A DNA stretch of 64,000 nucleotides, from NCBI RefSeq assembly GCF_004785795.1, contig NZ_SRRO01000001.1, positions 2,604,001-2,668,000 on the forward strand. Reading direction: 5' to 3'. The notes under the pieces are model-generated. The model saw only the letters and a program-made list of their open reading frames with translations, had not been told where the DNA came from and did no database searches. A program made the translations under genes and the position numbers. Shown here piece after piece: positions 39,107 through 61,734 of the stretch. Each line of letters begins with the position of its first letter. Position 1 is the first letter of the stretch. The DNA comes from Nocardioides eburneiflavus. Its GTDB lineage: Bacteria; Actinomycetota; Actinomycetes; Propionibacteriales; Nocardioidaceae.

Positions 39107-39792
39107 CGCCCATGCTCTACACGGTCGCGCACGGCGTCATCCCTCCGCTCGTCCGTGCCGTGTGGCGTCCGACGGTCGAGGGCCTGCACCACGTGCCCGC
39201 GACGGGACCCGTCATCGTGGCGAGCAACCACCTGTCATTCTTCGACAGCGTGGTCATCCCGGTGGTCGTGCCGCGCAAGGTCGTCTTCCTCGCCAAGTCC
39301 GACTACTTCACCGGGTCGGGGGTGAGGGGCGCGGCGCAGCGGGCCTGGTTCGAGGGGCTCGGCATGCTCCCCGTCGACCGCGACGACACGAAGGCCGCGA
39401 TCGCGAGCCTCGACACCGCGCTCGAGGTGCTGCGGCGTGGGGAGGCGTTCGGCATCTACCCCGAGGGCACCCGCTCACGCGACGGCCGGCTCTACCGGGG
39501 CCGCACCGGCGTGGCCCACCTCGCGCTGACCGCGGGCTGCCCGGTCGTCCCGGTGGGGCTGCAGGGCACCGAGGACATCCAGCCCGTCGGCTCCAACCGC
39601 CCTCGGCTGCGCGGCGTCGACGTGACGGTGCGCGTCGGTGAGCCGATCACCGTCGCGGGCGAGTACGACGGCGTCGCCACCGGCCGCGCCCGCCGCGACC
39701 TCACCGACCGGATCATGACCGCGATCGCGGGACTGACCGGCCAGGAGCTGGCCGGCGCCTACAACGAGCGGCCGGCCTCCACCTCGGCCTGA
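39103..39792 (+). CDS. 1-acyl-sn-glycerol-3-phosphate acyltransferase (PlsC family)
   Basis: The product has 229 residues. The acyltransferase motifs are clear: NHLSFFD near residue 40 (HxxxxD catalytic pair), GMLPVDRDD near 86, and YPEGTRSRDGRL near 118 for the phosphate-binding EGTRS. Such enzymes add the second fatty acid in phospholipid synthesis. ATG 39103 overlaps the ATL stop; a shorter start at 39112 is possible. Its last 34 bases overlap the convergent DUF1116 gene. Confidence 0.9.
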   Translation: MTPMLYTVAHGVIPPLVRAVWRPTVEGLHHVPATGPVIVASNHLSFFDSVVIPVVVPRKVVFLAKSDYFTGSGVRGAAQRAWFEGLGMLPVDRDDTKAAIASLDTALEVLRRGEAFGIYPEGTRSRDGRLYRGRTGVAHLALTAGCPVVPVGLQGTEDIQPVGSNRPRLRGVDVTVRVGEPITVAGEYDGVATGRARRDLTDRIMTAIAGLTGQELAGAYNERPASTSA

Positions 39793-41183
39793 GCCGACCG
39801 GGCCGCGAGCGCGGCGAGCGCCTTCGGGAAGATCTCCGCGGGCGGGGTGACGAGCCCGGCGCCGACCTGGCCGACGCCGGCGACCGCGCCGGCCATGCCG
39901 GTGTTGATCTGCGGCAGGATCCCCGTACGGCACACCTTGGTCACGTCGATGCCGGTGGGCGTGCCCTGGAACTCCAGCACGGGCACCGTCCAGCGCGGGT
40001 TCTCCGCGAGGGTGATCTCGTGCATCCGGCGCGTGGTGGCCAGCGCGTCGGGCACCGAGCCGCCGACGAGGCGGACGATCGCCGGCGCGGTCGCCATCGC
40101 GAAGCCGCCGATGCCAGCCGTCTCGGTGATCGCGGAGTCGCCGATGTCGGGGTTGGCGTCGTCGGGACCGAAGTCGCCGAGGAAGAGGCCCTCGGCGACC
40201 TGCGCCGGGCCGGTGAACCACTCGTCGCCCGTGCCGGAGACCTGGATGCCGAAGTCGGTGCCGTTGCGCGCCATCGCCACGACCATCGTCGACCCCGGCA
40301 CGTCGCGACCTGCGTCGAGGGCGAGCTTGCACGCGGGCATGGCGAGGTTGAGGAAGAAGTGGTCGTTGCCGCCGACGAAGCGCAGCACGTCGGCGACGTC
40401 CGAGCTGTGGAAGCCGCCCTCCTCCGCACTGGTCACCATCGCGGGGGACAGGTCGCGCAACAGCATCAGCGTGCCGGCGCGGTTGCGGTTGTGGGCCTCG
40501 TCTCCCATCTGGAGCATCTGCGTGAGGATGCCGGTGACGTCGGTGGCCTCCGGGGTGCCGCGCACTGCCGCCTGGAGCAGGGGGCCGAGCACGTCGCCCA
40601 TCCAGCGCAGGCGGGTCAGCACCTCGTCGTTGTAGGCGCCGTAGCGCAGCACCTTGCCGAGGCCCTCGTTGAGGGAGCAGTACGTCCGGCGGCCGGTCGC
40701 GCGGTCCTCGAGGACCCACATCCACATCGACGGCGTGACTACGCCCGCCATCGGGCCGACGGCGCTGCGGTGGTGGCACGGCTCGAGGCTGACGCTGCTG
40801 CCGGACTCGAAGAGCGCGACCGCGTCCTCGGGGTCGTCGACGAGGCCCTCGAGGGCGGCCCCGCCCATCAGGGCGCCGCGTAGGGGGCCGGAGGCACGCT
40901 CCCACTCGATCGGCGGGCCGGCGTGGAGGAACTGCCCCTGCTCGAGCCCGAGGACCTCGCTCGCCGGGGCGACGTCGACGAGGTGGGCGGTGACGCCGAG
41001 CATCGCCTCGACGGCCGTGCGGTTGGCCTCGACGCGGCGCGGGTCGGTGGCGACCGTCGCGAGGTCTGCCTCGGTGCCCGGCATCGGGGGACGCCAGTCG
41101 ACGCGCTGGACGTCGACGGCCTGGCCGGCCACGGCGTCGGCGAACATGTCGGCGCCGCAGGTGACGACCGTGGGGGTGCTCAT
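39759..41183 (-). CDS. DUF1116 protein (YlbE/AllG-like, oxamate carbamoyltransferase component)
   Basis: The product has 474 residues of the DUF1116 family. Recognisable parts are VDWRPP near residue 29, RVEANRTAVEAM near 50, GPMAGVVTPSMWMWV near 150, and GGNDHFFLNLAMPA near 273. The E. coli relative YlbE (AllG) is one of the proteins that, with FdrA and YlbF, accounts for oxamate carbamoyltransferase, the last nitrogen-salvaging step of anaerobic allantoin breakdown. Here it is the last of a three-gene minus-strand operon DUF2877-fdrA-DUF1116; its ATG shares a base with the fdrA stop (TGATG). Family assignment is firm; the exact substrate in this organism is inferred. Confidence 0.85.
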   Translation of the reverse strand: MSTPTVVTCGADMFADAVAGQAVDVQRVDWRPPMPGTEADLATVATDPRRVEANRTAVEAMLGVTAHLVDVAPASEVLGLEQGQFLHAGPPIEWERASGPLRGALMGGAALEGLVDDPEDAVALFESGSSVSLEPCHHRSAVGPMAGVVTPSMWMWVLEDRATGRRTYCSLNEGLGKVLRYGAYNDEVLTRLRWMGDVLGPLLQAAVRGTPEATDVTGILTQMLQMGDEAHNRNRAGTLMLLRDLSPAMVTSAEEGGFHSSDVADVLRFVGGNDHFFLNLAMPACKLALDAGRDVPGSTMVVAMARNGTDFGIQVSGTGDEWFTGPAQVAEGLFLGDFGPDDANPDIGDSAITETAGIGGFAMATAPAIVRLVGGSVPDALATTRRMHEITLAENPRWTVPVLEFQGTPTGIDVTKVCRTGILPQINTGMAGAVAGVGQVGAGLVTPPAEIFPKALAALAARSAQAEVEAGRSL

Positions 41184-42730
41184 CAGGAGGCCTTCCCTTC
41201 GAAGTTGCTCAGCAGGTCGAGGGCGCGGCGGGTGGCGCTCGCGTTGGACAGGTGGACCTCGGCGCCGGCGGCGACGAGCGCGTCGCGCTGCGCGGAGAGG
41301 CCCTGGGGGTCGAGGTCGGTGCCGACGAGGCTGACGACGACCGGGATCGGCCGCTCCGCGCGAGCTGCCTCGATGGCGGGGGCGAGGAGGGAGGCCGGGT
41401 CGGGCTCGGCGCCGTGGCCGAGCACGAGGTCGAGGAGGATCACGCCGGTCGAGGGGTCGGCGGCGGCGCGGGAGATCTGCTCGTTGCGCAGGGTCGGGTC
41501 GATCATCGGGTGCGCGCGGCCCTGGGTCAGGGCGTCGTCGCCGAAGTCGACGAACGTGTGGGTGTCCGCGATCAGCTCGCCCGGGTCGAGGGCGAGGTCG
41601 TCGGAGAGCGGGATGTTGCTGCGCACGGGGCCGAGCGCCTCGGTCGCGAGCAGCATCGACTCGTCGCACAGGGTCCCGCCGACGAAGAGGCCGCGCAGGA
41701 GCGGTCCGGTCGCGGCGGCCGACTCGTCGGCGCCCTGCACGGGCCAGTCGGGGGCGTCGTGGCCGAGGCGCGCGAGCACGGCCTCGGCGACGGCGGTGAG
41801 GTCGCGCTGGCCGCGACCGAGCAGGCCGAGCTCGACCGGGGTCGCCAGCGCGTCGGTGTCACGGGCGAGGGCCTCGGCGACCTCGGGGGCGGGGGGCTTG
41901 GAGACCACGACGACCAGGTCGACGTCCGGGTCGGCGTCGAGGCGGCGCAGCGCCTCGCGCGTGGCGAGCCCGCCGACCGCGGCCGACAGGTCACGGCCAC
42001 CCACGCCGAGCGCGTGGCGTACGCCGACCCCGTCGGTGCCCTGCGCGGCGAGGTGCTCGCCCGCGTGGTGCAGCAGCGCGAGCAGCTGCTGGCAGCCGGT
42101 GCCGGAGGCGGCGACGAGCCCGATCCGGCCGGGGCGCACCGTGTTGGCGAAGCCCAGTCCGACGCCGTCGATGACCGCGGTACCGCAGTCGGGGCCCATC
42201 ACGAGGGCGCCGCGGGAGGAGGCGTACGTCTTGAGCGCGACCTCCTCGGCGAGCGGCACGTTGTCGCTGAAGACCATCACGTCGTGGCCGGACTCGAGCG
42301 CGTCCATCGCCTCGACGGTGGCGCTGGCGCCCGGCACCGAGACCAGGGCGACGGCGCCGCCGGGACCCGTACGCCGCAGTGCGCTGCCGGTGGTGCGGGG
42401 CGGGGCCTCGGTGGTGTCGCCGGTGGTGGGGCGGGTCGGGGTGAGGGCGGTGTCGACGGCCTGCAGTGCCTGCGCGACGTCGGCGTCGGCGTCGAGGCGC
42501 AGCGCCACGACCATGTCGTTGCCGGAGGCGGGTGGAACGGCAAAGCCCATCGCCTCGAGCACCTCGAGGTTGAGCCCGGTGGCCATCGCGACCTGCGCGG
42601 CGACGACGCCGGGCGTGGCCTGGACGGCACGGCTGACCTGGAGGAGGGTCACCGAGTCGGCGTACGCGCCGCTGCGGAGCTCGACGTGGTCCACGTGGTC
42701 CACGTGGTCCTTGGTGGTGGTGGTGCTCAT
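41183..42730 (-). CDS. fdrA: FdrA-like protein (acyl-CoA synthetase fold)
   Basis: The product has 515 residues with the fold of succinyl-CoA synthetase alpha chains. SVPGASATVEAMDAL near residue 110, YASSRGALVMGPDCGTAV near 165, and VAASGTGCQQLL near 204 are the FdrA landmarks. It contains a short His/Asp/Val repeat near the N-terminus (DHVDHVDHVE) encoded by a nine-base tandem repeat GTGGTCCAC, which looks recently grown. FdrA (AllF) works with AllG and AllH in oxamate carbamoyltransferase of E. coli. Overlaps on both sides with its operon partners. No carbamate kinase gene, which completes the E. coli set, is in the window. Confidence 0.88.
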   Translation of the reverse strand: MSTTTTKDHVDHVDHVELRSGAYADSVTLLQVSRAVQATPGVVAAQVAMATGLNLEVLEAMGFAVPPASGNDMVVALRLDADADVAQALQAVDTALTPTRPTTGDTTEAPPRTTGSALRRTGPGGAVALVSVPGASATVEAMDALESGHDVMVFSDNVPLAEEVALKTYASSRGALVMGPDCGTAVIDGVGLGFANTVRPGRIGLVAASGTGCQQLLALLHHAGEHLAAQGTDGVGVRHALGVGGRDLSAAVGGLATREALRRLDADPDVDLVVVVSKPPAPEVAEALARDTDALATPVELGLLGRGQRDLTAVAEAVLARLGHDAPDWPVQGADESAAATGPLLRGLFVGGTLCDESMLLATEALGPVRSNIPLSDDLALDPGELIADTHTFVDFGDDALTQGRAHPMIDPTLRNEQISRAAADPSTGVILLDLVLGHGAEPDPASLLAPAIEAARAERPIPVVVSLVGTDLDPQGLSAQRDALVAAGAEVHLSNASATRRALDLLSNFEGKAS

Positions 42731-43500
42731 GCTGCCCTCCCGGGGCGGTCGGCGGGGTGGTCGTGGGGGCTGTCCTGATCGGGCATCGAGGCCAGCGCGA
42801 GGCGCGCGCCGGTGAGGAGGCCGGCTCCCGAGGTGGCGCCGACGGCGAGGAGCGCGTCGGTCGCCCCGTTCGAGGGGGAGGTGAGCCAGTCCGCGAGCTG
42901 GGGCAGCACCTCGCCGCGCAGGGCGCAGTCGAGCAGGGTCGCGGACAGCAGCGTCGTGACGCCCAGCCGGCGGCGTACGGCCGAGGCCAGCACGGGGTCC
43001 GGCCGGCCCGCGGCGGCGCGGGTGGCCAGCCAGCCGGCCAGCACGTCGTCGCCGAGCGGGGTCAGGCCCGGCCCGCGGCCGAGCAGGGCGTCGAGGTGCG
43101 CGGGGACCAGTCGGCCGTCGGCGGGCAGGGCGAGCCCGGAGGTCGCCGGGTGCGGCGCGAGGGTCTGGCCGGCGCGTCGCGGAGCGGGCGCAGTGACGTC
43201 GACGACGCGTCCGATGCGGGTCTGGCGTCCGCCGAGGACGAGCGTGCCGCCCCGTACCTCGACGTGGGGGGCGCCGCGGTGCTGCCCGAGGCCGATGACC
43301 TCGGTGAGGTCCGGCAGCGCCGACCAGAGGGCGCACGGCACCCGGGTCGCCGTCGCGGAGACGAGGCCGAGGCACCAGCCGTCGAGGTCGACGTAGATCG
43401 CCGAGCTGCTGGCGTGGAGGACCTGCCGGGGACCGTCAGCGGCGGTGAGGAGCCGCCGGCGCGCCCGCTGTGGTGCCGCAACGGGAAGTGGTCCGGACAT
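42727..43500 (-). CDS. DUF2877 protein (YlbF/AllH-like)
   Basis: The product has 257 residues. The DUF2877 landmark GLTPLGDDVLAG lies near residue 147; before it come an Ala/Arg-rich start and IYVDLDGWCLGLV near 37. In E. coli the YlbF (AllH) protein of this family is the third part of the oxamate carbamoyltransferase set. First gene of the minus-strand operon; its ATG at 43500 is 69 bases from the divergent PucR-type gene, so both use one short control region containing the GAGAACTTGTC motif. Its stop overlaps the fdrA start. Confidence 0.8.
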   Translation of the reverse strand: MSGPLPVAAPQRARRRLLTAADGPRQVLHASSSAIYVDLDGWCLGLVSATATRVPCALWSALPDLTEVIGLGQHRGAPHVEVRGGTLVLGGRQTRIGRVVDVTAPAPRRAGQTLAPHPATSGLALPADGRLVPAHLDALLGRGPGLTPLGDDVLAGWLATRAAAGRPDPVLASAVRRRLGVTTLLSATLLDCALRGEVLPQLADWLTSPSNGATDALLAVGATSGAGLLTGARLALASMPDQDSPHDHPADRPGRAA

Positions 43501-43542
43501 CACTCCCCAGACGCTAGCGGGCCGTGGGAGACTCGCGAATGT

Positions 43543-43553
43543 GAGAACTTGTC
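43543..43553 (+). promoter_or_regulatory. GAGAACTTGTC motif in the fdrA/pucR control region
   Basis: The 11-mer GAGAACTTGTC occurs here, 16 bases before the GTG of the PucR-type regulator and in the 69-base divergent gap. An identical copy occurs at 49774-49784 upstream of the permease operon. A shared regulator site is suggested; the PucR-type protein is the obvious candidate. Confidence 0.45.
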
Positions 43554-43569: not shown

Positions 43570-44841
43570 GTGCGCCAAGACTTGATAAGCGACCCCGAGG
43601 CGGTTGCTGCGCTGGAGCGGGCGGACGCCCTGCACACCGCGCTGACGCACATCGTCCTCGAGGGCGGGGACCTGGCTGCGATCGCGGAGGCGGTGGGTGC
43701 GGCGATGGGCTGCGGCGTCGTCTTCACCTCGACCGACGGCCGTGAGCGCGCGGCCCACCTCGACGAGAACCAGCGCGAGTCGCTGGCCGCCGCCGACCTG
43801 CTCGACCCGAGTGGCCGGGTGCGTGTCGAGCGGATCGACGCCGACGGCACCGCCGTGGGTGAGGGCGAGGCGCTCGTACGCCGTGTGGTGGCTGCGGGCG
43901 TCGACCTCGCGCGGCTCGTGGCTCTGCGCCCGGACGGGAAGATCCACTCCTCCGACGTGCACGCGCTGGAGCGCGCCGCCATCGTCGCGGCTTTGCTCGT
44001 CACGCGCGTCGAGGCGATCACCGCCGTGGAGAACAAGTACCGCGGCGACTTCCTCCGCGACGTCTTCCTCGGCCGCGCCGGGGAGGAGGAGTACGTCGCC
44101 GAGCACGCGCAGGCCTTCGGCTGGCACCTCGACCGGCCGGTGATGGTGGTGGTCGCGGTGCTCGACCCGGACGCGATGGCAGCGCTGGGCCCCGACCCCG
44201 AGGACCGGCGTGCGTGGCAGGACCGCTTCGCCCACGCGTGGCGGCAGGTCTCGGCGACGGTCGACCCGAGCATCGCCTCGGTCGCCTTCAGCCGCGAGGT
44301 CGTCACGCTCGTGCCCGTCGACCTCGAGGCCGGCGCCGCCGACGCGCACGTCGCCGTCGACCGGATCATCGCGGCGGTTCGGGGTGACCGCGGTGGCGGC
44401 CGGATCGCGTTCTCCGCCGGCGTGAGCCGCGTGTCCCACGGCCTCGGTGACCTGCCGGAGGCGTTCCGCCAGGCCCAGCGGGCCGTCGAGATCGGCCGCC
44501 GGGTGCACGGCGGCGGCTCGGTCACCCGCTTCGACCAGCTCGGCCTGCACCGGCTGCTCGCCCTCGTGCCCGACGGGTCCGAGCTGACGGCGTTCGCGGC
44601 CGACGTCCTCGGCCCGCTCGCCGAGCGCACCCCCGAGGCCGCCGACCTGCGCGAGACGCTCCAGGTGCTGCTCGACACCAACTTCAACGTGGCCGAGGCG
44701 GCGCGCGCCCAGTTCTTCCACTACAACACGATGCGCTACCGCGTCGGCAAGCTGCAGCGGATCCTCGGGCCCGTCGCCACCGACCCGCACCTGCGGCTCG
44801 ACGTGGCGGTCGCGCTGCGGGCGCTGGAGATCGTCGGCTGA
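43570..44841 (+). CDS. PucR-family transcriptional regulator
   Basis: The product has 423 residues: an N-terminal sensory part (about 20-150), a central GGDEF-like/CdaR segment near 165-310, and a C-terminal PucR helix-turn-helix (LLDTNFNVAEAARAQFFHYN followed by TMRYRVGKLQRILG, residues about 365-400). PucR regulators control purine and ureide catabolism, and sometimes other amine or sugar diacid routes. It is divergent from the DUF2877-fdrA-DUF1116 operon and very probably controls it. GTG at 43570 was chosen because upstream in-frame codons lack a good start; TTG near 43549 would add seven residues. Confidence 0.88.
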   Translation: MRQDLISDPEAVAALERADALHTALTHIVLEGGDLAAIAEAVGAAMGCGVVFTSTDGRERAAHLDENQRESLAAADLLDPSGRVRVERIDADGTAVGEGEALVRRVVAAGVDLARLVALRPDGKIHSSDVHALERAAIVAALLVTRVEAITAVENKYRGDFLRDVFLGRAGEEEYVAEHAQAFGWHLDRPVMVVVAVLDPDAMAALGPDPEDRRAWQDRFAHAWRQVSATVDPSIASVAFSREVVTLVPVDLEAGAADAHVAVDRIIAAVRGDRGGGRIAFSAGVSRVSHGLGDLPEAFRQAQRAVEIGRRVHGGGSVTRFDQLGLHRLLALVPDGSELTAFAADVLGPLAERTPEAADLRETLQVLLDTNFNVAEAARAQFFHYNTMRYRVGKLQRILGPVATDPHLRLDVAVALRALEIVG

Positions 44842-44880: not shown

Positions 44881-44915
44881 CGGACCGGTGACAGCCACCG
44901 GAGAGGATGGCGACG

Positions 44916-45932
44916 ATGACCAGCACCCGTGACCTGATGACCATCGGCGACTTCGCCCGCGCGGCGGGCCTGACGCCGAAGGCGTTGCGGCTCTACGACG
45001 AGCTCGGGCTGCTGCGTCCGGTCGAGGTCGACGAGCACTCGGGCTACCGCCGGTACGCCCCCGCCCAGCTCGAGCGTGCCCGCCTGGTGGCGACGCTCCG
45101 GCTGGTGGGCATGCCGCTGGCCCGGATCGAGCAGGTGCTGGACGGCTCCCGCGCCGACATGGCGCAGGCCGTCTCGGCGTACTGGGTCCAGGTCGAGGCA
45201 GACACCGCGACCCGCCGCGACATCGTCGCCACCCTCGTCCACCACCTGAGGAACGAGGAACCCGACATGACCCTCTCCACCCACACCCTGCACGCGACGT
45301 TCGGCACCAGCCACCTCCGGGGCGGCCGCGACCGCCAGCAGGACGCGTACGTCGCGACGCCCGAGCTGGTGGCGGTCGCCGACGGCTTCGGTGACCGCGA
45401 CGACCTCGCCGCCATGGCGCTGGCGGCGTTCGGGACCGGCGGCCTCGACGGCGCCGTGGCCGAGGTCGCGGCCGACATCACGGCGGGCCTGCCCGATGCG
45501 CCGACCTCGGGCACCACCCTCACCGCGGTCGTCCTCGAAGGAGGAACCGCGCGCATCACGCACGTCGGCGACGCGCGGGTGTGGCTGGTGCGCGACGGTG
45601 CGCTGCGGCAGCTCACCCACGACCACACGGTCGTCGCCGCGCTGATCGACGCTGGTCAGCTCACCGTCGACGAGGCGCGCTCGCACGAGCACCGCAACCT
45701 GCTCAACCGCGCCCTGGCCCCGGGCGTCGTGGCCGACGAGGCCGCGGTCGACCTCCGGCCGGGCGACCGGCTGGCGCTCACGACCGACGGCGTCCACTCG
45801 TACGTCGACGACCTCGCCCCGCTGCTCCTCGCCGACGGCGAGCCGCAGGACGTCGCGGACTCCGTGGCGGCGGCCGTCGTCGCCGCCGGCGAGCCGGACA
45901 ACCACACCGTCGTGGTGGTCGACCTGTCCTGA
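44916..45932 (+). CDS. MerR-type regulator fused to a PP2C-like phosphatase domain
   Basis: The product has 338 residues. Residues 1 to about 110 form a MerR regulator: MTIGDFARAAGLTPKALRLYDELGLL with wing residues SGYRRYAPAQL, followed by a dimer helix. From about 125 a PP2C (PPM) Ser/Thr phosphatase domain has its landmarks: GRDRQQDAYVA near 134, HVGDARVWLVRDG near 212, LTTDGVHSYVDDL near 285, and DNHTVVVVDLS at the end. Asp residues for the two metals are present. ATG 44916 lies nine bases after GGAGAGG; ATG 44907 is also possible. The phosphatase domain may sense or set phosphorylation of an anti-sigma or kinase system, with the MerR part turning it into transcription. This is rare wiring and unassigned. 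Confidence 0.85.
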   Translation: MTSTRDLMTIGDFARAAGLTPKALRLYDELGLLRPVEVDEHSGYRRYAPAQLERARLVATLRLVGMPLARIEQVLDGSRADMAQAVSAYWVQVEADTATRRDIVATLVHHLRNEEPDMTLSTHTLHATFGTSHLRGGRDRQQDAYVATPELVAVADGFGDRDDLAAMALAAFGTGGLDGAVAEVAADITAGLPDAPTSGTTLTAVVLEGGTARITHVGDARVWLVRDGALRQLTHDHTVVAALIDAGQLTVDEARSHEHRNLLNRALAPGVVADEAAVDLRPGDRLALTTDGVHSYVDDLAPLLLADGEPQDVADSVAAAVVAAGEPDNHTVVVVDLS

Positions 45933-45964
45933 GGCCGGCACGCAGCCGACACGGTCGGTTGCGC

Positions 45965-46010
45965 CTCCCGTCACCGTGCGTTGGCCTCGGGCGCGCACGG
46001 TGGGCGGGAG
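45965..46010. terminator. Large hairpin after MerR-PP2C gene
   Basis: A stem with CTCCCG (45965-45970) plus CACCGTGCG (45972-45980) pairs with CGCACGGTG (45994-46002) plus CGGGAG (46005-46010), with a small internal bulge. It lies 33 bases after the MerR-PP2C stop and 47 bases before the phosphodiesterase start, so it likely ends the first transcript. Confidence 0.55.
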
Positions 46011-46056
46011 CGCCCGGCCGACCGGCTGGGCCCGACACTCCTCGGGAGAACACCAG

Positions 46057-47406: not shown

Positions 47407-47435
47407 CTCCCGCAGCCGCGCCGCGGACCTGGGCG

Positions 47436-49096: not shown

Positions 49097-49109
49097 GTCT
49101 GCGCACCGG

Positions 49110-49245
49110 GTCAGGGGTCTCGTGACGGTCGCTGCGCGACCTCCTCGACCAGCGAACGGTCGCCCGGGTCTCGATACACCGGGGCTCGTTCCTCGCCGGC
49201 TACTCGACCAGCGATGGCTGACAGGCTGGTCGACCACCGATGGGG
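49110..49245. repeat. REP-like palindromic repeats
   Basis: Several repeats of the same unit seen at 22641-22755 and 59486-59527 lie here, next to the 5' end of HNH copy B: GGTCTCGTGACGG...CTCGACCAGCGA, GGTCTCGATACACC...CTCGACCAGCGATGG, and GTCGACCACCGATGG (the last being the complement of CCATCGGTGGTCGAC). They are imperfect and overlap each other. Confidence 0.6.
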
Positions 49246-49252
49246 AGATCGG

Positions 49253-49699: not shown

Positions 49700-49752
49700 C
49701 CCCGAAGCGTACGAGTGCGCGAGGTGACAGGCGGGAACGTGCACGTCATGGT

Positions 49753-49815: not shown

Positions 49816-49892
49816 CCAGTGAGGGTGTGAGATGGGCCGCACTAGTTTGTGGCTTCTCGGGTACACACCCCTGCGAATCTGGAGGCCTGCAC

Positions 49893-52692: not shown

Positions 52693-55109
52693 CCACCAAG
52701 CTCTTCGGCGCCAAGGTGCCGCGCGTGGAGGACCAGCGCTTCCTGCGCGGACAGGGCCGCTACGTCGACGACCTCCTCACCGACGACCCGCGGCTGCTGC
52801 ACGCGGCCGTCCTCCGCTCGCCCCACGCCCACGCCCGCATCGTCGACATCGACGTCTCCGACGTGCTCGATCTCGACGGCGTGGTCGCGGTGTGGACCTG
52901 GGAGGACCTCACCGGCCCGATGGCCGAGCCGCTGCCGCTGCTCATCCCGCACCCGACGCTCACCCACGGCCGCACCCAGTACGCGCTGGCGCGCGAGGAG
53001 GTCAACTACGTCGGCGAGGCGATCGCCTTCGTGGTCGCCGTCGACCGCTACGTCGCCGAGGACGCCGTCGCCCGCATCCGCGTCGACTACGAGCACCTCC
53101 AGCCGGTGGTCGGCATCGCCGCCGCCCGCGCGGCGGAGCGTACGGTCCACGACGACGTGCCCGACAACGTCGGCGCCCGGATGGAGCAGGAGAACGGCGA
53201 CGCCCGCGCCGCGATCGCCGCTGCTCCGCACACGCTCACCCTCGACCTCGACATCGAGCGCTCGGCCTGTACGCCCATGGAGGGCCGCGGCACCGTCGCC
53301 CGGTGGGACCCCGACACCTCGCGGCTGACCGTGTGGTCGTCCACCCAGACGTCGACCGGCGTGCGTGGCTGCGTGGCCGCCAAGCTCGGCCTCGACCTCG
53401 CCAAGGTCGACGTGATCACCCCCGACGTCGGCGGCGGGTTCGGCGTCAAGGTGGTGCACCCGTGGCCCGAGGAGCTGCTGGTCCCGCTGGCGGCGAAGAC
53501 GCTCGGCCGGCCGGTCAAGTACACCGAGGACCGGCGTGAGCACTTCATCTCGTCCGCGCACGAGCGCGCCCAGGAGCACCACGTCGAGGTCGGCTTCGAC
53601 GACGAGGGCCGGGTGCTCGGGCTCGACGTCGAGTTCTGGCACGACCACGGCGCCTACACGCCCTACGGGCTCATCGTCCCGATCATCACGTCCACGCAGC
53701 TGCTCGGGCCCTACAAGCCGCAGAACTACCGCGTCGTGTTCGAGTCGCTCTACACCAACACCGTCATCGTCACGCCCTACCGCGGTGCCGGCCGGCCGCA
53801 GGGCTGCTTCGTGATGGAGCGGACGATGGACGCGATCGCGGCCTACCTCGGCAAGGACCGCACCGAGGTGCGCTCCGCCAACTTCATCCAGCCCGACGAG
53901 TTCCCCTACGAGCACGGGCTGATCTTCCAGGACGGTCGCGAGCTGACCTACGACTCGGGCGACTACCCGGCGTCGCTGGCCAAGCTCAAGGAGCTCGTCG
54001 GCTGGGACGAGTTCGAGGACTTCCGAGCCGAGATGGCCGCCCAGGGCCGCCGGGTCGGCATCGGGCTGGCCTGCTACGTCGAGGGCACCGGCGTCGGTCC
54101 CTACGAGGGGGCCCACGTCCACATCGAGACCTCCGGCAAGGTCAAGGTCGCCACCGGCCTCACCACCCAGGGCCAGGGCCACCAGACCGCGTTCGCGCAG
54201 ATCGTCGCCGACACCCTCGGCGTCCGGTTCGAGGACGTCGAGGTCACCACCGGCGACACCCGCAAGATGCCGTACGCCGTCGGCACCTTCGCCTCCCGTG
54301 CCGCGGTGATGAGCGGCTCGGCGATCCACCTCGCGGCGCTGCGTGCCAAGGAGAAGGCGCTGCGCATCGCCGCGGAGGCGCTCGAGGCGTCCGAGGAGGA
54401 CCTCGAGATCGCCGACGGCGTGGTGAGCGTCAAGGGCACCGACGCGAGCATCGACCTCGGCACCGTCGCCGTGCTGTCCAACCCGCTGCGCTACGCCTTC
54501 GACGAGGCGTCCAAGGCCGCCACCCAGTTCTCCGTCGGCGACCCCGGCAAGCCGCCGGTCGCCGAGGGCGACGAGCCGGGGCTCGAGGGCAAGGACTTCT
54601 ACTCCCCGCCGCGCTCGACCTTCGCCAACGGCATGCACGCCGTGATCGTCGAGACCGACCCAGACACCGCCGAGATCACGATCCTCAAGTACGCCGTGGT
54701 GCACGACTGCGGCCACCTGATCAACCCGATGATCGTCGAGGGCCAGATCCACGGCGGCGTCGCGCAGGGCGTGGGCGGCGCGCTCTACGAGCGGATGGCC
54801 TACGACGAGTCCGGGCAGCTGCTCAACGCCTCGTTCATGGACTTCCTCATGCCCTACGTCACCGAGGTCCCGACGTCGATCGACATCGACCACCTCGAGA
54901 CGCCGTCCCCGCTCAACCCGCTCGGCATCAAGGGCGCGGGCGAGGCCGGCGTCATCCCGTCGGCCGCGGTCTTCGCCGCCGCCATCGAGGATGCGGAGGG
55001 CTTCCCCATCACGGCGATGCCCATCTCGCCGTCCGAGCTCTTCGAGCTGCGCCTCGCGCACGCCGACGAACCCGACCCCACCGAAGCCCCCACCAGGAGC
55101 ACCCCATGA
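52689..55109 (+). CDS. Molybdenum hydroxylase, molybdopterin-binding subunit
   Basis: The product has 806 residues, the usual length for the large subunit. VGGGFGVKV near residue 250 and TPYRGAGRPQG near 362 bind the cofactor and substrate, GQGHQTAFAQ near 493 binds molybdopterin, and KGAGEAGVIPSA near 745 carries the catalytic Glu. The active-site loop is not the AYRCSFR of true (form I) CO dehydrogenase, so CO oxidation is unlikely and an N-heterocycle or related carbon is the likelier substrate. GTG 52689 overlaps the small-subunit stop; the stop overlaps the CoxG ATG. The Mo-specific insertion factors (XdhC-like) are not in the window. Confidence 0.92.
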   Translation: MTTKLFGAKVPRVEDQRFLRGQGRYVDDLLTDDPRLLHAAVLRSPHAHARIVDIDVSDVLDLDGVVAVWTWEDLTGPMAEPLPLLIPHPTLTHGRTQYALAREEVNYVGEAIAFVVAVDRYVAEDAVARIRVDYEHLQPVVGIAAARAAERTVHDDVPDNVGARMEQENGDARAAIAAAPHTLTLDLDIERSACTPMEGRGTVARWDPDTSRLTVWSSTQTSTGVRGCVAAKLGLDLAKVDVITPDVGGGFGVKVVHPWPEELLVPLAAKTLGRPVKYTEDRREHFISSAHERAQEHHVEVGFDDEGRVLGLDVEFWHDHGAYTPYGLIVPIITSTQLLGPYKPQNYRVVFESLYTNTVIVTPYRGAGRPQGCFVMERTMDAIAAYLGKDRTEVRSANFIQPDEFPYEHGLIFQDGRELTYDSGDYPASLAKLKELVGWDEFEDFRAEMAAQGRRVGIGLACYVEGTGVGPYEGAHVHIETSGKVKVATGLTTQGQGHQTAFAQIVADTLGVRFEDVEVTTGDTRKMPYAVGTFASRAAVMSGSAIHLAALRAKEKALRIAAEALEASEEDLEIADGVVSVKGTDASIDLGTVAVLSNPLRYAFDEASKAATQFSVGDPGKPPVAEGDEPGLEGKDFYSPPRSTFANGMHAVIVETDPDTAEITILKYAVVHDCGHLINPMIVEGQIHGGVAQGVGGALYERMAYDESGQLLNASFMDFLMPYVTEVPTSIDIDHLETPSPLNPLGIKGAGEAGVIPSAAVFAAAIEDAEGFPITAMPISPSELFELRLAHADEPDPTEAPTRSTP

Positions 55110-55750
55110 AGTTCACCGGAGAGAACACGCTCGCCGCGCCCGTCGCGCAGGCGTGGGACGCGCTGCTCGACCCGGCCGTCCTCGTCCGCACGATCCCCGG
55201 CTGCGAGCGCCTCGAGGCGACCGGCGAGAACGCGTACGCCATGACGGTCACCGCGGGCGTCGCGTCGATCAAGGGGACGTACGCCGGCTCCTGCGTGCTC
55301 ACCGACCTCGTCGAGCACGAGTCGCTCGTGATGAAGCTCGACGGCGCGGGCGCGCCGGGCACCATCGGGGCCACGGTCAACGTGCGGTTCGCTCCCGAGG
55401 GCTCCTCGACACGCATCTCCTACGACGCCGACGCCGTCGTCGGCGGGATGATCGGCGGGGTCGGCCAGCGCATGCTGACGAGCGTGTCGCGGCGGATGGC
55501 CGGGGAGTTCTTCGGCAACGTCGACGGCGTGCTGGCCGGCGGGGGAGCGGCTCCCGTCGAGGCAGCCGCCGCTGCAGGTGCGCCGGCTGCGGCGCCCGGA
55601 GGCGCGGTCAGCGCCGGCCAGGTCTTCACGGCGCCGGCTCCGGCGCCGGCGGCCGCCTCGCGGCAGGACTTCCTCACCGGCGTCGCCGTCGGCGCCGGCC
55701 TCGTGGTGCTCGGCGTGGTCGTCGGCGGGATCTTCGGTCGGCGGCGCTGA
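55106..55750 (+). CDS. CoxG-like membrane-anchor protein (SRPBCC fold)
   Basis: The product has 214 residues. The SRPBCC/CoxG fold fills about 1-145 (KFTGENTLAAPVAQAW at the start, LLDPAVLVRTIPGCERLE, EGSSTRISYDADAVVGG). An Ala/Pro-rich linker follows, and a C-terminal membrane helix near 190-210 (AVGAGLVVLGVVVGGIFG) ends in RRR. CoxG proteins recruit molybdenum hydroxylases to the membrane, which suits the gene order. Overlap with the large subunit (ATGA) and a four-base gap to the amidase support one transcript. Confidence 0.85.
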   Translation: MKFTGENTLAAPVAQAWDALLDPAVLVRTIPGCERLEATGENAYAMTVTAGVASIKGTYAGSCVLTDLVEHESLVMKLDGAGAPGTIGATVNVRFAPEGSSTRISYDADAVVGGMIGGVGQRMLTSVSRRMAGEFFGNVDGVLAGGGAAPVEAAAAAGAPAAAPGGAVSAGQVFTAPAPAPAAASRQDFLTGVAVGAGLVVLGVVVGGIFGRRR

Positions 55751-55754
55751 CGCG

Positions 55755-57149
55755 ATGACCGACGTCACCGTCGACTCCACCGCCCGGGACCAGGCCGCCG
55801 CCGTACGTGCCGGCGAGATCTCGGCGACCGAGCTCCTCGAGCTGCACCTCGACCGGATCGAGGAGCGCAACCCCGAGCTCAACGCGATCGTCTCCCTCGA
55901 CGCCGAGCGCGCGCGGGCGTGGGCGGCCGTCGCCGACCAGGCGTACGCCTCCGGCGAGGAGGTCGGCCCGCTGCACGGCCTGCCGTTCGCGGTCAAGGAC
56001 ACCCACGCGCTCAAGGGGTGGCGCACGACGTACGGCTCGCCGATCTTCGCCGACGCGGTAGCCGACCACGACGACCTCCTCGTCGAGCGGGTCCGCGCGG
56101 CCGGCGCCGTGTTCGTCGGCAAGACCAACGTGCCGGAGTTCGCAGCCGGCTCGCACACCTTCAACACCGTCTTCGGCGTCACCCGCAACCCGGTCGATCC
56201 CTCGCGCTCGGCGGGCGGGTCCAGCGGGGGAGCGGCGTGCGCGCTGGCCTCCGGGATGGTGCCGCTGGCCGACGGCTCCGACATGGGCGGCTCGCTGCGC
56301 AACCCCGCGTCCTTCTGCGGGGTCGTCGGGATGCGACCGTCGCTGGGGCGGGTGCCGGAGTGGCCGCTCTACAACCAGTGGGAGTCCACCTCGGTCGGCG
56401 GCCCGATGGCGCGCAACGTCGGCGACCTCGCGCTCCTGCTGTCCGTGATCGCCGGGCCCGACCCGCGCGCCCCCCAGGCGCTGGGCGACCCGGGCACCTC
56501 GTTCGCACCTCCGCTGGTGCCGGCCCCACTCACCGGACTGCGGGTGGCGACGACGGTGGACCTCGGCGGCGCGCTCGTCGTCGACCACGAGGTCGCGAGC
56601 GTCGTGCGCGCCACCGCGACCCGCCTGTCCGACGCCGGTGCCGCCGTGACCGACGCCCACCCCGACCTCACGCTGGCCGACGACACCTTCCGCACGCTCC
56701 GGGCGTGGCACTTCCAGGCCAAGCTCGGCCGCCTCCTCGCCAAGCACCCGACGTCGTTCAAGCCCTCCCTCGAGGCCAACATCCGTGCCGGCGAGCCGCT
56801 GACGGGCGCCGACGTCGCGCGGGCGTACACGCAGCGCACCTCGCTGTCGGAGACGATGCGGCTGTTCTTCGGCGACCACGACGTCCTGCTGCTGCCGACC
56901 TCGCAGGTGCCGCCGTTCCCGGTGGAGCAGGAGTTCCCCGAGGCGATCAACGGCCAGGAGATGCCCGACTACCTCGCCTGGATGCGCTCGGCCTACTTCA
57001 TCACCGTGACCGGCTGTCCCGCGATCTCGGTCCCGGCCGGACGTACGCGGGACGGGCTGCCGGTCGGCGTCCAGCTCGTCGCCCGACACGGCGCCGACCG
57101 TCAGCTTCTCGAGGTCGCCACCGCGGTGGAGGAGCTGCTCGCCGCCTGA
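55755..57149 (+). CDS. Amidase signature family enzyme
   Basis: The product has 464 residues. The Ser-cisSer-Lys triad is visible: Lys in PFAVKDTHA near residue 79, cis-Ser in SAGGSSGGAACALASG near 155, and nucleophile Ser in DMGGSLRNPASF near 180. The family opens amides of many kinds, including ureidomalonate and hydantoin-like ring products. Last gene of the coupled operon from the permease; the place suggests it hydrolyses an acyclic amide made from the hydroxylated ring. The stop is followed by a 490-base gap. No frameshift is seen. Confidence 0.88.
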   Translation: MTDVTVDSTARDQAAAVRAGEISATELLELHLDRIEERNPELNAIVSLDAERARAWAAVADQAYASGEEVGPLHGLPFAVKDTHALKGWRTTYGSPIFADAVADHDDLLVERVRAAGAVFVGKTNVPEFAAGSHTFNTVFGVTRNPVDPSRSAGGSSGGAACALASGMVPLADGSDMGGSLRNPASFCGVVGMRPSLGRVPEWPLYNQWESTSVGGPMARNVGDLALLLSVIAGPDPRAPQALGDPGTSFAPPLVPAPLTGLRVATTVDLGGALVVDHEVASVVRATATRLSDAGAAVTDAHPDLTLADDTFRTLRAWHFQAKLGRLLAKHPTSFKPSLEANIRAGEPLTGADVARAYTQRTSLSETMRLFFGDHDVLLLPTSQVPPFPVEQEFPEAINGQEMPDYLAWMRSAYFITVTGCPAISVPAGRTRDGLPVGVQLVARHGADRQLLEVATAVEELLAA

Positions 57150-57640: not shown

Positions 57641-59731
57641 ATGAGCAATCGGCGGATCAGGATCGGGATCGACACCGGCGGCACGTTCACCGACGTCGTG
57701 GCCTTCGACGAGGACTCGGGCGAGCTGGTCACCACCAAGACCCCCAGCACGCCGGGCAACCCCGCCGACGGCTTCATCGCCGGCATCGAGAAGATCCTCG
57801 GCGTCGTCGGCGCCGAGGGCAGTGACATCACCGCCGTCTCGCACGGCACGACGGTGGCGACCAACAAGCTCCTCGAGGGCAAGGTCGAGGCACTCGGCTT
57901 CATCACGACCGAGGGCTACGAGTTCATGCTCGAGATCGCCCGCCAGTCCGTTCCCGACGGCTACGGCAACTCCTACTTCTGGGTGAAGCCCGACCGCATC
58001 GTCCCGGCCGACCGCGTCCGTACGGTCGGGGGCCGCCTCGACTTCACCGGCGCCGAGATCCGGCCCTTCGACGAGGAGCAGGCCGTCGCGGCGGCCCGCT
58101 GGTTCCGCGACCAGGGCATCTCCACCATCGGTGTCTGCCTGCTGCACGCCTACGCCAACGACGAGCACGAGCTCCGCCTGCGCGAGGTCCTGCGCCGCGA
58201 GCACCCCGACGCCGTCGTCTCGATCTCCAGCGAGGTGCTGCGCGAGTACCGCGAGTACGAGCGCTCGATGACCACGCTGGTCGACGCGGCGGTCAAGCCC
58301 AACGTCAGCCGCTACGTCACCAACATCTCCGAGCGGCTGCTGAACTTCACCGGCAGCGCCATCCCGTTCTACGTGATGAAGTCCAACGGTGGCGTGCTGT
58401 CGGCCGACGAGGTCGTCCACCAGCCGATCACGACCGTGCTGTCCGGCCCGGCCGCGGGCGCCCTCGGGGCCGCCCTGATCGCGAAGGTCGCCGGCTTCCC
58501 GAAGATCCTCACCTGCGACGGCGGCGGCACCTCCACCGACGTCTCGGTGGTCCTCGACGGCGAGCCCACTCTCACCACCGAGGGCACTGTCGGGGCCTAC
58601 CCCAGCAAGATCCCCATGATCGACGTCGTCACCGTCGGCGCGGGTGGCGGCTCGATCGCCTGGCTCTCGCCCGAGGGCACCCTCAAGGTCGGCCCCCACT
58701 CGGCCGGCGCCGACCCGGGCCCGCTCTGCTACGGCAAGGGCGGCACCGCCCCGACGATCACCGACGCCCACGTCACCCTCGGCCGGATCCCTCCCCACCT
58801 GCTCGGCGGGGAGATCCCGCTCGACGTCGAGGCGGCCCGCGCCGGCATCACCGAGCTCGCCGGCCAGCTCGGTGTCGACTTCGAGCGCTGCGCCACCGGG
58901 ATCCTCGAGATCTCCGCGTGGAACCAGGCCAACGCCCTGCGCCAGGTCAGCGTCAAGCGCGGCCTCGACGTGCGCGACTTCATGCTCACCACCTTCGGCG
59001 GCTCCGGCTCGCTGCTGGCCTGCCGGCTCGTCGACATCCTCGACCTCGCGGGCGTCGTCGTGCCCCCCAACCCGGGCAACGTGAGCGCCTTCGGCCTGCT
59101 GACCGTCGACGTGAAGAACGACTACGTCCAGACCCACGTGGCCAAGGAGTCCGCGCTCGACCACGCGGCCGTCCAGGCCGTCCTCGACACCCTCACCGAC
59201 CGGGCCCGCGAGGCGCTCGACAAGGAGGGCTTCACCGAGGACCAGCACCAGTTCCACCGCACCATCGACGTGCGCTACGTCGGCCAGGCCTACGAGGTGC
59301 GCGTCGCCGCACCCGAGGGCGAGGTGGACCAGGCGTACGTCGCCGAGGTCGCCGACACCTTCCACGCCGAGCACCGCCAGCTCTACGGCTACGACTTCCG
59401 TGGGGACCCGACCCAGCAGGTCGAGTGGGTCAACCTGCGCGTCACCGGCATCGGGCCCATCACGCGCCCGGAGATCCCCAAGCTCCCATCGGTGGTCGAG
59501 GTGCGAGCGTCAGCGAGCCTCGAGACCACGACCCGGCCCGTGTGCTTCGACCCGGAGGTCGGCTACGTCGACACCCCGATCATCTGGCGCGGCGACCTCG
59601 GCGCGGGCGACACCTTCAGCGGCCCGGCCATCGTGGAGGAGTTCGGGTCCACCATCCCCGTCCACCCCGGCTTCGAGGTCGTGGTCGACGACTGGGCCAA
59701 CCTCGTGATCCGGAAGGAGTCGGGCCGATGA
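57641..59731 (+). CDS. hyuA: Hydantoinase/oxoprolinase subunit A
   Basis: The product has 696 residues. The sugar-kinase-like ATP site is marked by GIDTGGTFTDVV near residue 8 and LTCDGGGTSTDVSVV near 288; SHGTTVATNKLLEGK near 67 is also conserved. Such enzymes open a cyclic amide (hydantoin, 5-oxoproline, caprolactam-like rings) using ATP with HyuB. A REP-like unit is inserted in frame near residue 617 and adds SVVEVRASASLETT, just before the conserved RPVCFD segment, so the frame is kept. Start ATG 57641 lies 100 bases beyond a terminator hairpin, so it may have its own promoter. The stop overlaps hyuB (ATG 59728). Confidence 0.9.
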   Translation: MSNRRIRIGIDTGGTFTDVVAFDEDSGELVTTKTPSTPGNPADGFIAGIEKILGVVGAEGSDITAVSHGTTVATNKLLEGKVEALGFITTEGYEFMLEIARQSVPDGYGNSYFWVKPDRIVPADRVRTVGGRLDFTGAEIRPFDEEQAVAAARWFRDQGISTIGVCLLHAYANDEHELRLREVLRREHPDAVVSISSEVLREYREYERSMTTLVDAAVKPNVSRYVTNISERLLNFTGSAIPFYVMKSNGGVLSADEVVHQPITTVLSGPAAGALGAALIAKVAGFPKILTCDGGGTSTDVSVVLDGEPTLTTEGTVGAYPSKIPMIDVVTVGAGGGSIAWLSPEGTLKVGPHSAGADPGPLCYGKGGTAPTITDAHVTLGRIPPHLLGGEIPLDVEAARAGITELAGQLGVDFERCATGILEISAWNQANALRQVSVKRGLDVRDFMLTTFGGSGSLLACRLVDILDLAGVVVPPNPGNVSAFGLLTVDVKNDYVQTHVAKESALDHAAVQAVLDTLTDRAREALDKEGFTEDQHQFHRTIDVRYVGQAYEVRVAAPEGEVDQAYVAEVADTFHAEHRQLYGYDFRGDPTQQVEWVNLRVTGIGPITRPEIPKLPSVVEVRASASLETTTRPVCFDPEVGYVDTPIIWRGDLGAGDTFSGPAIVEEFGSTIPVHPGFEVVVDDWANLVIRKESGR
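59486..59527 (+). repeat. REP-like element inside hyuA
   Basis: CCATCGGTGGTCGAGG at 59487-59502, then TGCGAGCGTCAGCGAGCC and CTCGAGACC, is the same unit as the intergenic REP-like repeats at 22641 and 49110 but lies within the hyuA coding sequence. Its length keeps the reading frame, adding about 14 residues with no stop. The local reading SVVEVRASASLE is unlike the conserved HyuA chain around it. Confidence 0.7.
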
Positions 59732-61734
59732 GCACGAGCACCGACGTCAGCACCCGCCCCGTGGACCCGGCCTACGTCACGGCGAAGCCGGTCAACCCCG
59801 CCGGCCTGCCCACGGCGTACGAGCACGGCGGGCGCCTCACGCCCGAGGGCTCGAGCGTCGACCCGATCCTCGTCGAGATCGTCCAGGGCACCCTCGCCAG
59901 CGTCGAGATGGAGGTCGAGACCGCCATCGGGCGTACGAGCCGATCGCCGATGATCCGCGACGCGCACGACTTCCGCGCCGGCATCCACGACCGCCAGCTG
60001 CGCAAGCTCACCGGCCGCTCCTACAGCGCGCTGGTGCACCCGATCGTGCGCGACTTCCCGCTGGAGGAGATGCGCGAGGGCGACGTGTTCTTCCACAACG
60101 ACGTCTACGAGTCCGAGGGCGGCATCGGCCATCTCCCGGACCTCTGCGTCACCGTGCCGGTCTTCCACGAGGGCGAGGTCGTCGCGTTCGTGCAGGCCTT
60201 CGGCCACCACGACGACATCGGCGGCGCCTGCCCCGGGTCGATGCCGAGCGGCGCGACCAGCGTCTACGAGGAGGGCCTCGCCGTCCCGCCGATCAAGCTG
60301 TGGGACGCGGGCGTGCCCAACAAGGCCGCGCTGCGGATCATGACCCGCAACTCGCGGATGCCCGACAGCCTCGCCGCCGACCTCGACGCCGAGTGCTCGG
60401 CGTGCCTGATGGGCGCACGCCGGCTCAGTGAGCTGTTCGAGCGCTACGGCCGCGAGGCGATCGAGACGTCGTTCGACGCGATCCTCGACGCGACCACCGA
60501 GACCTACCGTCGCGAGATCCTCTCCAAGATCCCCGACGGCACCTACGTCTGGGAGGACTACGCCGAGCACGACGGCGTCGACGAGCCGCAGCTGCACACC
60601 CAGCGGATCACCCTGACCAAGGTCAGCGACGCCCCGGCCGACCCCGAGAACGGTCGTCCCGCCGGACCGCGGCTGATCATCGACTTCACCGGCACCAGCG
60701 CCCAGGCCAAGGGGCCGATCAACCACTGCGGCGACTACGTCGGCGGCAACTTCCTCAAGAAGTGGCTCGCGCCGATCCTGCGCAACCTCGCCGACACCCC
60801 CGAGCGGATGGCCGAGCTCGACGTCAACGAGGGCATCGTGCCGCTGATCGAGATGCGCTTCCCCGAGAAGGGCACGCTGCTCACCCCGATCCACCCGGGC
60901 CCGACCAACGCCCGCACCTTCGTGATCCTGCGGCTGCTCGGTGTGCTCGCGGGGGTCGTGGCCAAGGCGGTCGACGGCAAGATGCCGGCCGACCAGGAGA
61001 CGATCCGCTACACCGGCGTCTACGGCAAGGACCTCGAGGGCAACGACTACCTCATGCGCGAGGTGCTCGGCGGCGGCTCCGGCGGCCGCTACTACGCCGA
61101 CGGCGAGGACACCATCCACGTGGTGCCCGACTCCCGCAACCTGCCGACCGAGTTCACCGAGTCGCGCTTCCCGTTCATCGTCGAGCGCCTCGGCCTGGCC
61201 GTCGACTCCGGCGGCGCGGGCCAGTTCCGCGGCGGGCTGGGCTACGAGAAGCAGATCCGGATGCTCAAGGACGCCCACTTCATGTCCATCGCCGACCGCT
61301 CGATCCTGGCCTGCTGGGGCGTGCGCGGCGGCAAGGCGGGTGCCCCCTTCCAGGTCGTCATCGACCCGGGTGGCCCCGAGGAGCGCGAGGTCGACGCCCT
61401 CGCCGACGCCGAGGTGGTCCGGGCCGGCCAGGTCGTGCGGATCCGTACGACCGGTGGGGGCGGCTGGGGCGACCCGCTGGCCCGCGACCCGGAGCTCGTC
61501 GTCCGTGACGTGGTCTGGGGCAAGGTGTCGGCCGAGGGCGCGCTGCGCGACTACGGCGTCGTGCTGACCGGTTCACGTGACGGCGGTGACCTCGGCTTCG
61601 ACGCTGCAGCCACCGACGCCGAGCGCGCGGGGCGGGCTGCGTGGAGCCGGGAGGACGACGCGTTCTTCGACCGCGGTCCGGGATACGCCGAGCTGGCGGA
61701 GGGCGCTGCCTTCGCCGAGGTCGACCGGATCTGA
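59728..61734 (+). CDS. hyuB: Hydantoinase/oxoprolinase subunit B
   Basis: The product has 668 residues. Typical HyuB features are DPILVEIVQGTLASVEMEVE near residue 45, TSRSPMIRDAHDF near 70, FHNDVYESEGGIGHLPDL near 122, and a Gly-rich TTGGGGWGDPLARDP near 570 that is the C-terminal mark. Together with HyuA it hydrolyses a cyclic imide or lactam in the cytoplasm. The ATG overlaps the hyuA stop. It ends the catabolic block; no further pathway gene follows on this strand. Confidence 0.9.
   Translation: MSTSTDVSTRPVDPAYVTAKPVNPAGLPTAYEHGGRLTPEGSSVDPILVEIVQGTLASVEMEVETAIGRTSRSPMIRDAHDFRAGIHDRQLRKLTGRSYSALVHPIVRDFPLEEMREGDVFFHNDVYESEGGIGHLPDLCVTVPVFHEGEVVAFVQAFGHHDDIGGACPGSMPSGATSVYEEGLAVPPIKLWDAGVPNKAALRIMTRNSRMPDSLAADLDAECSACLMGARRLSELFERYGREAIETSFDAILDATTETYRREILSKIPDGTYVWEDYAEHDGVDEPQLHTQRITLTKVSDAPADPENGRPAGPRLIIDFTGTSAQAKGPINHCGDYVGGNFLKKWLAPILRNLADTPERMAELDVNEGIVPLIEMRFPEKGTLLTPIHPGPTNARTFVILRLLGVLAGVVAKAVDGKMPADQETIRYTGVYGKDLEGNDYLMREVLGGGSGGRYYADGEDTIHVVPDSRNLPTEFTESRFPFIVERLGLAVDSGGAGQFRGGLGYEKQIRMLKDAHFMSIADRSILACWGVRGGKAGAPFQVVIDPGGPEEREVDALADAEVVRAGQVVRIRTTGGGGWGDPLARDPELVVRDVVWGKVSAEGALRDYGVVLTGSRDGGDLGFDAAATDAERAGRAAWSREDDAFFDRGPGYAELAEGAAFAEVDRI

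Follow-up and report, generated by a model that had tools for sequence, protein, structure and literature searches.

A Nocardioides locus predicted to join oxidative pyrimidine degradation to an energy-conserving AllFGH and carbamate kinase end

Which compound is broken down by a locus that combines a nucleobase permease, a molybdenum hydroxylase and the three subunit genes of an AllFGH-type transcarbamylase? We addressed this question for a 64,000-nucleotide stretch (hereafter the window) of the Nocardioides eburneiflavus genome (contig NZ_SRRO01000001.1, positions 2,604,001 to 2,668,000), in which GC content is 72% in a genome of 5.0 Mb. The initial annotation had seen no barbiturase here and could name no pathway. 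By Pfam, NCBIfam and PDB family and sequence scans of the window and of the DNA beyond its end, we found a carbamate kinase gene and a barbiturase gene in the interval from 0.5 to 2.6 kb beyond the window; they had been missed because the window stops at position 64000. Since barbiturase marks oxidative pyrimidine degradation, the pathway can now be named. We consider it likely, judging from gene content and linkage, that the locus is a single regulon in which pyrimidines are degraded oxidatively and AllFGH and carbamate kinase conserve energy at the end of the route.

Both genes are on the plus strand. The carbamate kinase gene occupies 64498-65433 in window coordinates (contig 2668498-2669433), starting 498 bp past the window end and about 21 kb from the AllFGH genes, and the barbiturase gene occupies 65456-66562 (contig 2669456-2670562), starting 1456 bp past it. 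The barbiturase matches the AtzD/barbiturase family (PF09663, 472 bits; TIGR02714, 587 bits against a cut-off of 153), and its PDB match to 5hwe (Barbiturase) reaches 677 bits versus 309 bits for the best cyanuric acid hydrolase. It shows 86% identity with the enzyme of Rhodococcus erythropolis NBRC 15567 and 98% with the Nocardioides ganghwensis and N. flavus enzymes. It carries the motifs VQTKTP and SSVASCS, which by our own assignment would hold the Ser-Lys dyad described as conserved in the barbiturase family in the available part of PMC4051656. Close homology predicts that it opens the barbiturate ring to give ureidomalonate.

The genes named by the initial annotation were all recovered by the family scans, at or close to the positions first given. 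The three transcarbamylase subunit genes stand together on the minus strand (39759-43500): AllG (DUF1116; 39759..41183; PF06545, 311.7 bits; identity 46% with E. coli AllG and 44% with YahG), the FdrA-like AllF (41183..42730; PF00549; PRK06091 at about 360 bits, below its cut-off of 433; PDB 3dmy, protein fdrA, 208 bits) and AllH (DUF2877; 42727..43500; PF11392, 64.7 bits; start placed by eye at the ATG preceding the intergenic region). A PucR-family regulator gene is divergent from them (43570..44841, plus strand; PF13556 and PF17853; start by gene caller). The second half, all on the plus strand, begins with an NCS2 nucleobase permease of the RutG/UraA-like type (49893..51320; PF00860, 226.6 bits; best named model RutG, 343.9 bits, below its cut-off of 759). 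It is followed by the FAD subunit (51317..52195; PF00941, PF03450), the 2Fe-2S subunit (52192..52692; NCBIfam match only, NF041020 at 207 bits, below cut-off) and the molybdenum cofactor (MoCo) subunit (52689..55109; NF040766, 1526 bits against a cut-off of 950) of the molybdenum hydroxylase, proposed to act on uracil or thymine. Then come a CoxG-like protein (55106..55750; PF06240, 75.4 bits), an amidase-signature amidase proposed to hydrolyse malonamate or ureidomalonate (55755..57149; PF01425; PRK07486, 470 bits against a cut-off of 465), HyuA of the ATP-dependent hydantoinase/oxoprolinase type (57641..59731; PF01968, PF05378) and HyuB (59728..61734; PF02538, 443.9 bits). The operon had been described as fully coupled from the permease onwards; this holds from permease to amidase, where genes overlap or almost touch, and a 491-bp gap (57149 to 57641) precedes HyuA.

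From these genes we propose the following route. The NCS2 permease would import uracil or thymine, as its family suggests. The FAD/2Fe-2S/MoCo hydroxylase, with CoxG as an accessory protein, would convert uracil to barbiturate, an assignment that draws on its linkage to barbiturase, and barbiturase would convert barbiturate to ureidomalonate. AllFGH would then carry out a new step, in which ureidomalonate and phosphate yield malonamate and carbamoyl phosphate, and carbamate kinase, by homology, would use carbamoyl phosphate and ADP to form ATP, NH3 and CO2. The amidase would release NH3 from malonamate to leave malonate, which would enter central metabolism; many relatives may use a linked class III CoA-transferase and carboxyltransferase for this. 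PucR would regulate the locus. Barbiturate apart, we infer every substrate, the phosphorolytic step and the role of HyuAB. The AllFGH step is modelled on the chemistry of the E. coli relative, an oxamic transcarbamylase that cuts oxalurate according to the available part of PMC11326118. Oxalurate (HOOC-CO-NH-CO-NH2) is shorter than ureidomalonate (HOOC-CH2-CO-NH-CO-NH2) by one CH2. The carbamoyl-salvage arm foreseen by the initial annotation is retained in this route, with carbamate kinase added to the AllFGH set.

The linkage of these genes was followed in 149 genomes of the family and 396 genomes of the phylum, counting the MoCo subunit only above its 950-bit cut-off; all association counts are inflated by common descent. 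Across the family, AllG was found in 70 genomes, MoCo in 64 and PF09663 in 66. AllG and MoCo occurred together in 64 genomes, AllG only in 6, MoCo only in none and neither in 79, a stronger coupling than chance would give, and AllG and PF09663 occurred together in 64, with AllG alone in 6 and PF09663 alone in 2, whose genomes are 81 and 85% complete. The window's genus repeats the pattern, with AllG, MoCo and barbiturase all present in 23 of 36 sampled genomes and none of them in the other 13. The genes are also close to one another: AllG and MoCo share a contig in 57 of 64 genomes, separated by 6.3 to 16.7 kb in every one of these. For AllG and barbiturase, 54 of 64 genomes have both on one contig, no more than 45 kb apart in 53. 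The 54th genome (G013) has AllG and barbiturase at opposite ends of a single 4.1-Mb contig, where the locus probably spans the origin. The suggestion of an originally single locus that was later interrupted is borne out by the relatives, in which the two halves belong to one locus.

The phylum sample extends this picture, with PF09663 in 27 genomes, AllG in 49, MoCo in 30 and all three in 21; AllG was present in 22 of the 27 PF09663 genomes versus 49 of 396 overall. Partial sets comprised MoCo and PF09663 without AllG (3 genomes) and PF09663 and AllG without MoCo (1), and single genes comprised MoCo alone (1), PF09663 alone (2) and AllG alone (22). Loci outside the window's class keep barbiturase, AllF and AllG in a different gene order. 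Most of those read also hold PucR, a permease (28-33% identical), carbamate kinase, AllH and the hydroxylase, and some also CoxG, an amidase and HyuA. Their MoCo subunits are 67-70% identical to the window's, except that of L059 at only 30%, so the gene set varies. Three loci of family f39 (L060, L061, L064) have an amidohydrolase gene adjoining barbiturase; the L061 protein, the only one scanned, is cytosine deaminase-like at scores below model cut-offs. E. coli yahJ, which adjoins yahEFG/yahI, is likewise annotated as an amidohydrolase.

We then asked whether the AllG proteins of these loci differ from those of other systems. The tree was built from 69 matches (aligned over more than 330 residues in proteins of more than 380 residues, shorter ones dropped), less 4 duplicates and plus 2 E. 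coli rows, giving 67 rows. Six second copies that lie away from the locus in barbiturase genomes (L044, L045, L180-L183) were labelled "other". The 43 locus copies of barbiturase genomes (best copies for nine named genomes) are set apart from all other rows by a single branch with a Shimodaira-Hasegawa-like approximate likelihood ratio test (SH-aLRT) support of 97.7, a quick method run with no bootstrap, and the six other copies and E. coli AllG and YahG fall outside this group. Next to it stands a group of four f9/f20 rows from genomes with MoCo over its cut-off and no PF09663 match; the deep branching order is unsure because some outside rows are very long-branched. In the alignment, both E. 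coli paralogues share 91 columns that are identical in at least 95% of the 33 barbiturase-linked rows compared, and a further 16 columns are specific to these rows, which fits a common core with a different substrate.

A natural comparison is offered by named barbiturase loci in which the AllFGH branch is missing. Among the 80 named loci, which are the best 80 of a longer match list, 75 contain carbamate kinase, and four of the five without it belong to Rhodococcus or Rhodococcoides. In all four of these the barbiturase gene is followed by an amidase gene whose product is about 41% identical to the window amidase. AllG and carbamate kinase were searched in 14 of the 80 genomes. AllG was not found in the four Rhodococcus/Rhodococcoides genomes, three of which gave no carbamate kinase match and one a 42% relative, and the other ten all carry AllG and carbamate kinase at 54% identity or more. 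The R. erythropolis locus (L143) is the classical one, its barbiturase differing from 5hwe at 1 of 369 residues. Like the window's locus it clusters barbiturase, permease, Mo-hydroxylase, CoxG, HyuA and PucR, together with a CoA-transferase and a carboxyltransferase; unlike it, there is no AllG or carbamate kinase match in the genome, and an amidase follows barbiturase.

Several observations weigh against the proposed route. AllFG and Mo-hydroxylase occur without a PF09663 match in the same genome in 5 of the 396 phylum genomes, so the AllFG substrate need not derive from barbiturase. AllFGH and carbamate kinase genes adjoin biuret and triuret genes in nitrifiers, according to the available part of PMC12625717, which suggests wider acylurea substrates. 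G553, which holds the fifth named locus without carbamate kinase (L149), is a weak case among the ten AllG genomes: its sole carbamate kinase (54%) is not near barbiturase but some 4 kb from a second, YahG-type AllG. Two urease-alpha hits were obtained in the window genome, as was an allantoinase over its model cut-off, 304 kb from the locus, so that oxalurate may be used or urea released in this organism. Barbiturase and urease show no association in the family (strong hits in 12 of 66 genomes with barbiturase versus 10 of 83 without, p = 0.36). Finally, the window amidase is not an orthologue of malonamidase E2, which it matches at about 87 bits with many other amidases ranking higher; it could be a ureidomalonase, and both routes could coexist.

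The alternative that survives best is the classical oxidative pathway, in which the amidase would be the ureidomalonase that yields urea and malonate, with AllFGH and carbamate kinase acting elsewhere. This pathway, which ends in malonic acid and urea via ureidomalonase and has been known since the 1950s, is described in the available part of PMC3758960, and the locus does contain an amidase. The R. erythropolis arrangement, with an amidase adjoining barbiturase and no AllG found, agrees with it, as do the three phylum genomes that have PF09663 and the hydroxylase without AllG. In the one of these that was read (L082), the Mo-hydroxylase stands beside a gene only distantly related to barbiturase (40%), which itself adjoins an amidase; with AllG not found in that genome, this is a third arrangement. 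The urease hits of the window genome point the same way. However, 54 of the 66 family genomes with barbiturase have no strong urease hit, and AllG and a close carbamate kinase accompany barbiturase and, in the 14 genomes searched, are missing in just those four where an amidase adjoins it. Urease alpha was found in all four Rhodococcus-type genomes versus 4 of 16 AllG-type genomes, the window genome among the latter four; this contrast is suggestive, but with no association in the family we rejected urease as a family-wide test.

The amidases bear on the same choice. If AllFGH acts on ureidomalonate as it does on oxalurate, malonamate is formed and an amidase has to follow. Malonamidase E2, an amidase-signature enzyme like the window amidase and a distant relative of it, hydrolyses malonamate to malonate and ammonia according to the available part of PMC8393822. 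Three amidases were tested from barbiturase loci that are of the AllFGH type and stand outside the window's class (L051, L053, L060); each has malonamidase E2 as its clear best PDB match, at 239-270 bits versus 143-148 for the next molecule. The R. erythropolis amidase is distant from malonamidase E2 (70 bits), and that of L079 is intermediate (153 bits versus 190 for its best match). The malonamate step is thus supported by similarity for the L051, L053 and L060 lineages, and would extend to the window by analogy. Together with the low identity, only about 41%, between the window amidase and the Rhodococcus one, these matches weigh against the classical pathway, which we consider an unlikely account of the locus as a whole.

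Further downstream, a class III CoA-transferase occurs in 43 and a carboxyltransferase in 18 of the 80 named loci, which would be expected if malonate, their putative substrate, were activated and decarboxylated. The 17 kb that follow the window gave no match to either. The carboxyltransferase was also considered as a malonate decarboxylase and rejected, as those models match far below their cut-offs.

The second alternative is that AllFGH is the ordinary oxamic transcarbamylase of allantoin degradation and stands in the locus by chance. It draws on the oxamic transcarbamylase activity of E. coli AllFGH (available part of PMC11326118) and on the window genome's allantoinase. Against it, that allantoinase is 304 kb away, and the 149 family genomes show no association of AllG with allantoinase (31 of 70 AllG genomes versus 26 of 79 others, p = 0.18). 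No linkage of AllG to allantoin genes was found, allantoinase being the only one examined and the others not searched. Although the E. coli allFGHK genes likewise encode three homologous subunits and a carbamate kinase, the window AllG belongs to a separate group that excludes E. coli AllG, and is linked to barbiturase and Mo-hydroxylase rather than to allantoin genes. We regard this alternative as improbable. The same absence of an allantoinase link led us to reject purine or ureide catabolism as the main function; of the purine, pyrimidine or ureide regulon first proposed, the N-heterocycle catabolic regulon stands, with a pyrimidine as its probable substrate, given the barbiturase nearby.

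A cyanuric acid (s-triazine) pathway with an AtzD-type hydrolase and an AtzE-like amidase, to which the NCBIfam model CyanAcHdlAtzD (467 bits on the barbiturase, L047 4457-5563, over its cut-off of 360) and the AtzE models (267 bits on the amidase, below cut-off) would point, is very improbable and was rejected, since the hydrolase is much closer to barbiturase 5hwe and the locus carries a nucleobase permease and a Mo-hydroxylase.

In the proposed route the Mo-hydroxylase would act on the pyrimidine ring. NF040766 names the MoCo subunit an aerobic carbon monoxide (CO) dehydrogenase. The form I enzyme of that type has the active-site motif AYxCSFR. The window MoCo subunit carries PYRGAGR instead, as do all 44 MoCo sequences compared (identity of 50% or more across a stretch exceeding 600 residues; near-copies are among them), and the YRCSFR pattern occurs in none of the 44; the CO dehydrogenase label was therefore rejected. 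Of the genomes with PF09663, 63 of 66 in the family and 24 of 27 in the phylum sample have MoCo over its cut-off. On this linkage to barbiturase, uracil/thymine dehydrogenase is the obvious candidate function, and we regard the Mo-hydroxylase as a putative enzyme of that kind.

The role of HyuAB is suggested by three loci of family f9 (L078, L079, L080), where Mo-hydroxylase, HyuA, HyuB, AllF and AllG stand in an unbroken row and the genome gave no PF09663 match, so that HyuAB may be able to open the ring for AllFG. As a weak inference, HyuAB would open rings at the expense of ATP alongside barbiturase, with 5-methylbarbiturate formed from thymine as one conceivable substrate. These considerations lead to a broader proposal, to which we give about an even chance. 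The AllFGH family would phosphorolyse acylureas in general and have two or more classes of substrate, among them oxalurate when allantoin is degraded and ureidomalonate in the present locus, making pyrimidine catabolism urea-free and ATP-yielding; the locus would supply the missing uracil/thymine dehydrogenase genes and a new ureidomalonate transcarbamylase with its malonamidase, and HyuAB would replace barbiturase as second ring opener where only the hydroxylase and AllFG are kept.

The two halves of the locus may still be regulated together. An 11-mer, GAGAACTTGTC, occurs on the plus strand at 43543..43553 in the AllH/PucR intergenic region and again at 49774..49784, 119 bp before the permease start; allowing at most one mismatch, these are its only sites in 81 kb. 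A near relative (G082) has it at both promoters, one site with one mismatch, and it is absent from the PucR and permease promoters of the other 20 loci scanned. We take the pair as a weak candidate for a common operator and a weak sign of co-regulation here. A palindrome with arms CGACATCTGCC and GGCAGATGTCG, 41 bp apart, lies upstream of the permease (49753-49815) and is a possible operator; no exact second pair was found elsewhere in the 81 kb.

The block between the halves (44907..49906), previously described as unrelated or repeat sequence, contains by Pfam scan genes outside the pathway: a MerR-PP2C protein, a GDPD protein, a frame without a Pfam match and a GNAT protein. The block looks like an insertion here because the permease directly follows PucR, by gene calls, in 8 of 17 longer neighbourhoods of relatives; G082 carries the block as well. 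Within it, 44907-45932 encodes a MerR DNA-binding domain fused to a PP2C phosphatase domain, and 47479-49023 on the minus strand is a gene-sized frame of 514 codons. Downstream of HyuB, an NAD(P)-binding protein gene with no assigned role (61746..62420, plus strand; PF13460) has counterparts in 42 of the 80 named barbiturase loci, and two further genes separate it from the carbamate kinase gene.

Two known systems resemble the proposed AllFGH branch. The orphan yahEFG/yahI/yahJ locus of E. coli also encodes DUF2877, FdrA-like, DUF1116 and carbamate kinase-like proteins, with an amidohydrolase in addition; the stretch read has no annotated barbiturase or Mo-hydroxylase, and YahG falls in another AllG group. 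The ureidoglycine carbamoyltransferase proposed for Rubrobacter xylanophilus (available part of PMC4016543) would similarly transfer a carbamoyl group to phosphate and work with carbamate kinase in place of a hydrolysis, but in a purine route, and the enzyme belongs to the classical carbamoyltransferase superfamily and not to AllFGH. No description of an AllFGH branch of pyrimidine degradation was found in the open-access literature, a search that left subscription papers mostly outside, and on gene content we regard the branch as a putative new variant on the known oxidative pathway.

To our knowledge, genes for the dehydrogenase and the ureidomalonase of that pathway have not been assigned, and the present locus supplies candidate genes for every step of oxidative pyrimidine breakdown. 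Two automatic labels would be corrected, CO dehydrogenase for the hydroxylase and cyanuric acid amidohydrolase for the barbiturase; automatic naming could apply the latter because CyanAcHdlAtzD scores over its cut-off. The predicted new reaction, phosphorolysis of ureidomalonate, would recover ATP and avoid urea, and if this is true, the recently found AllFGH transcarbamylase would gain a second substrate.

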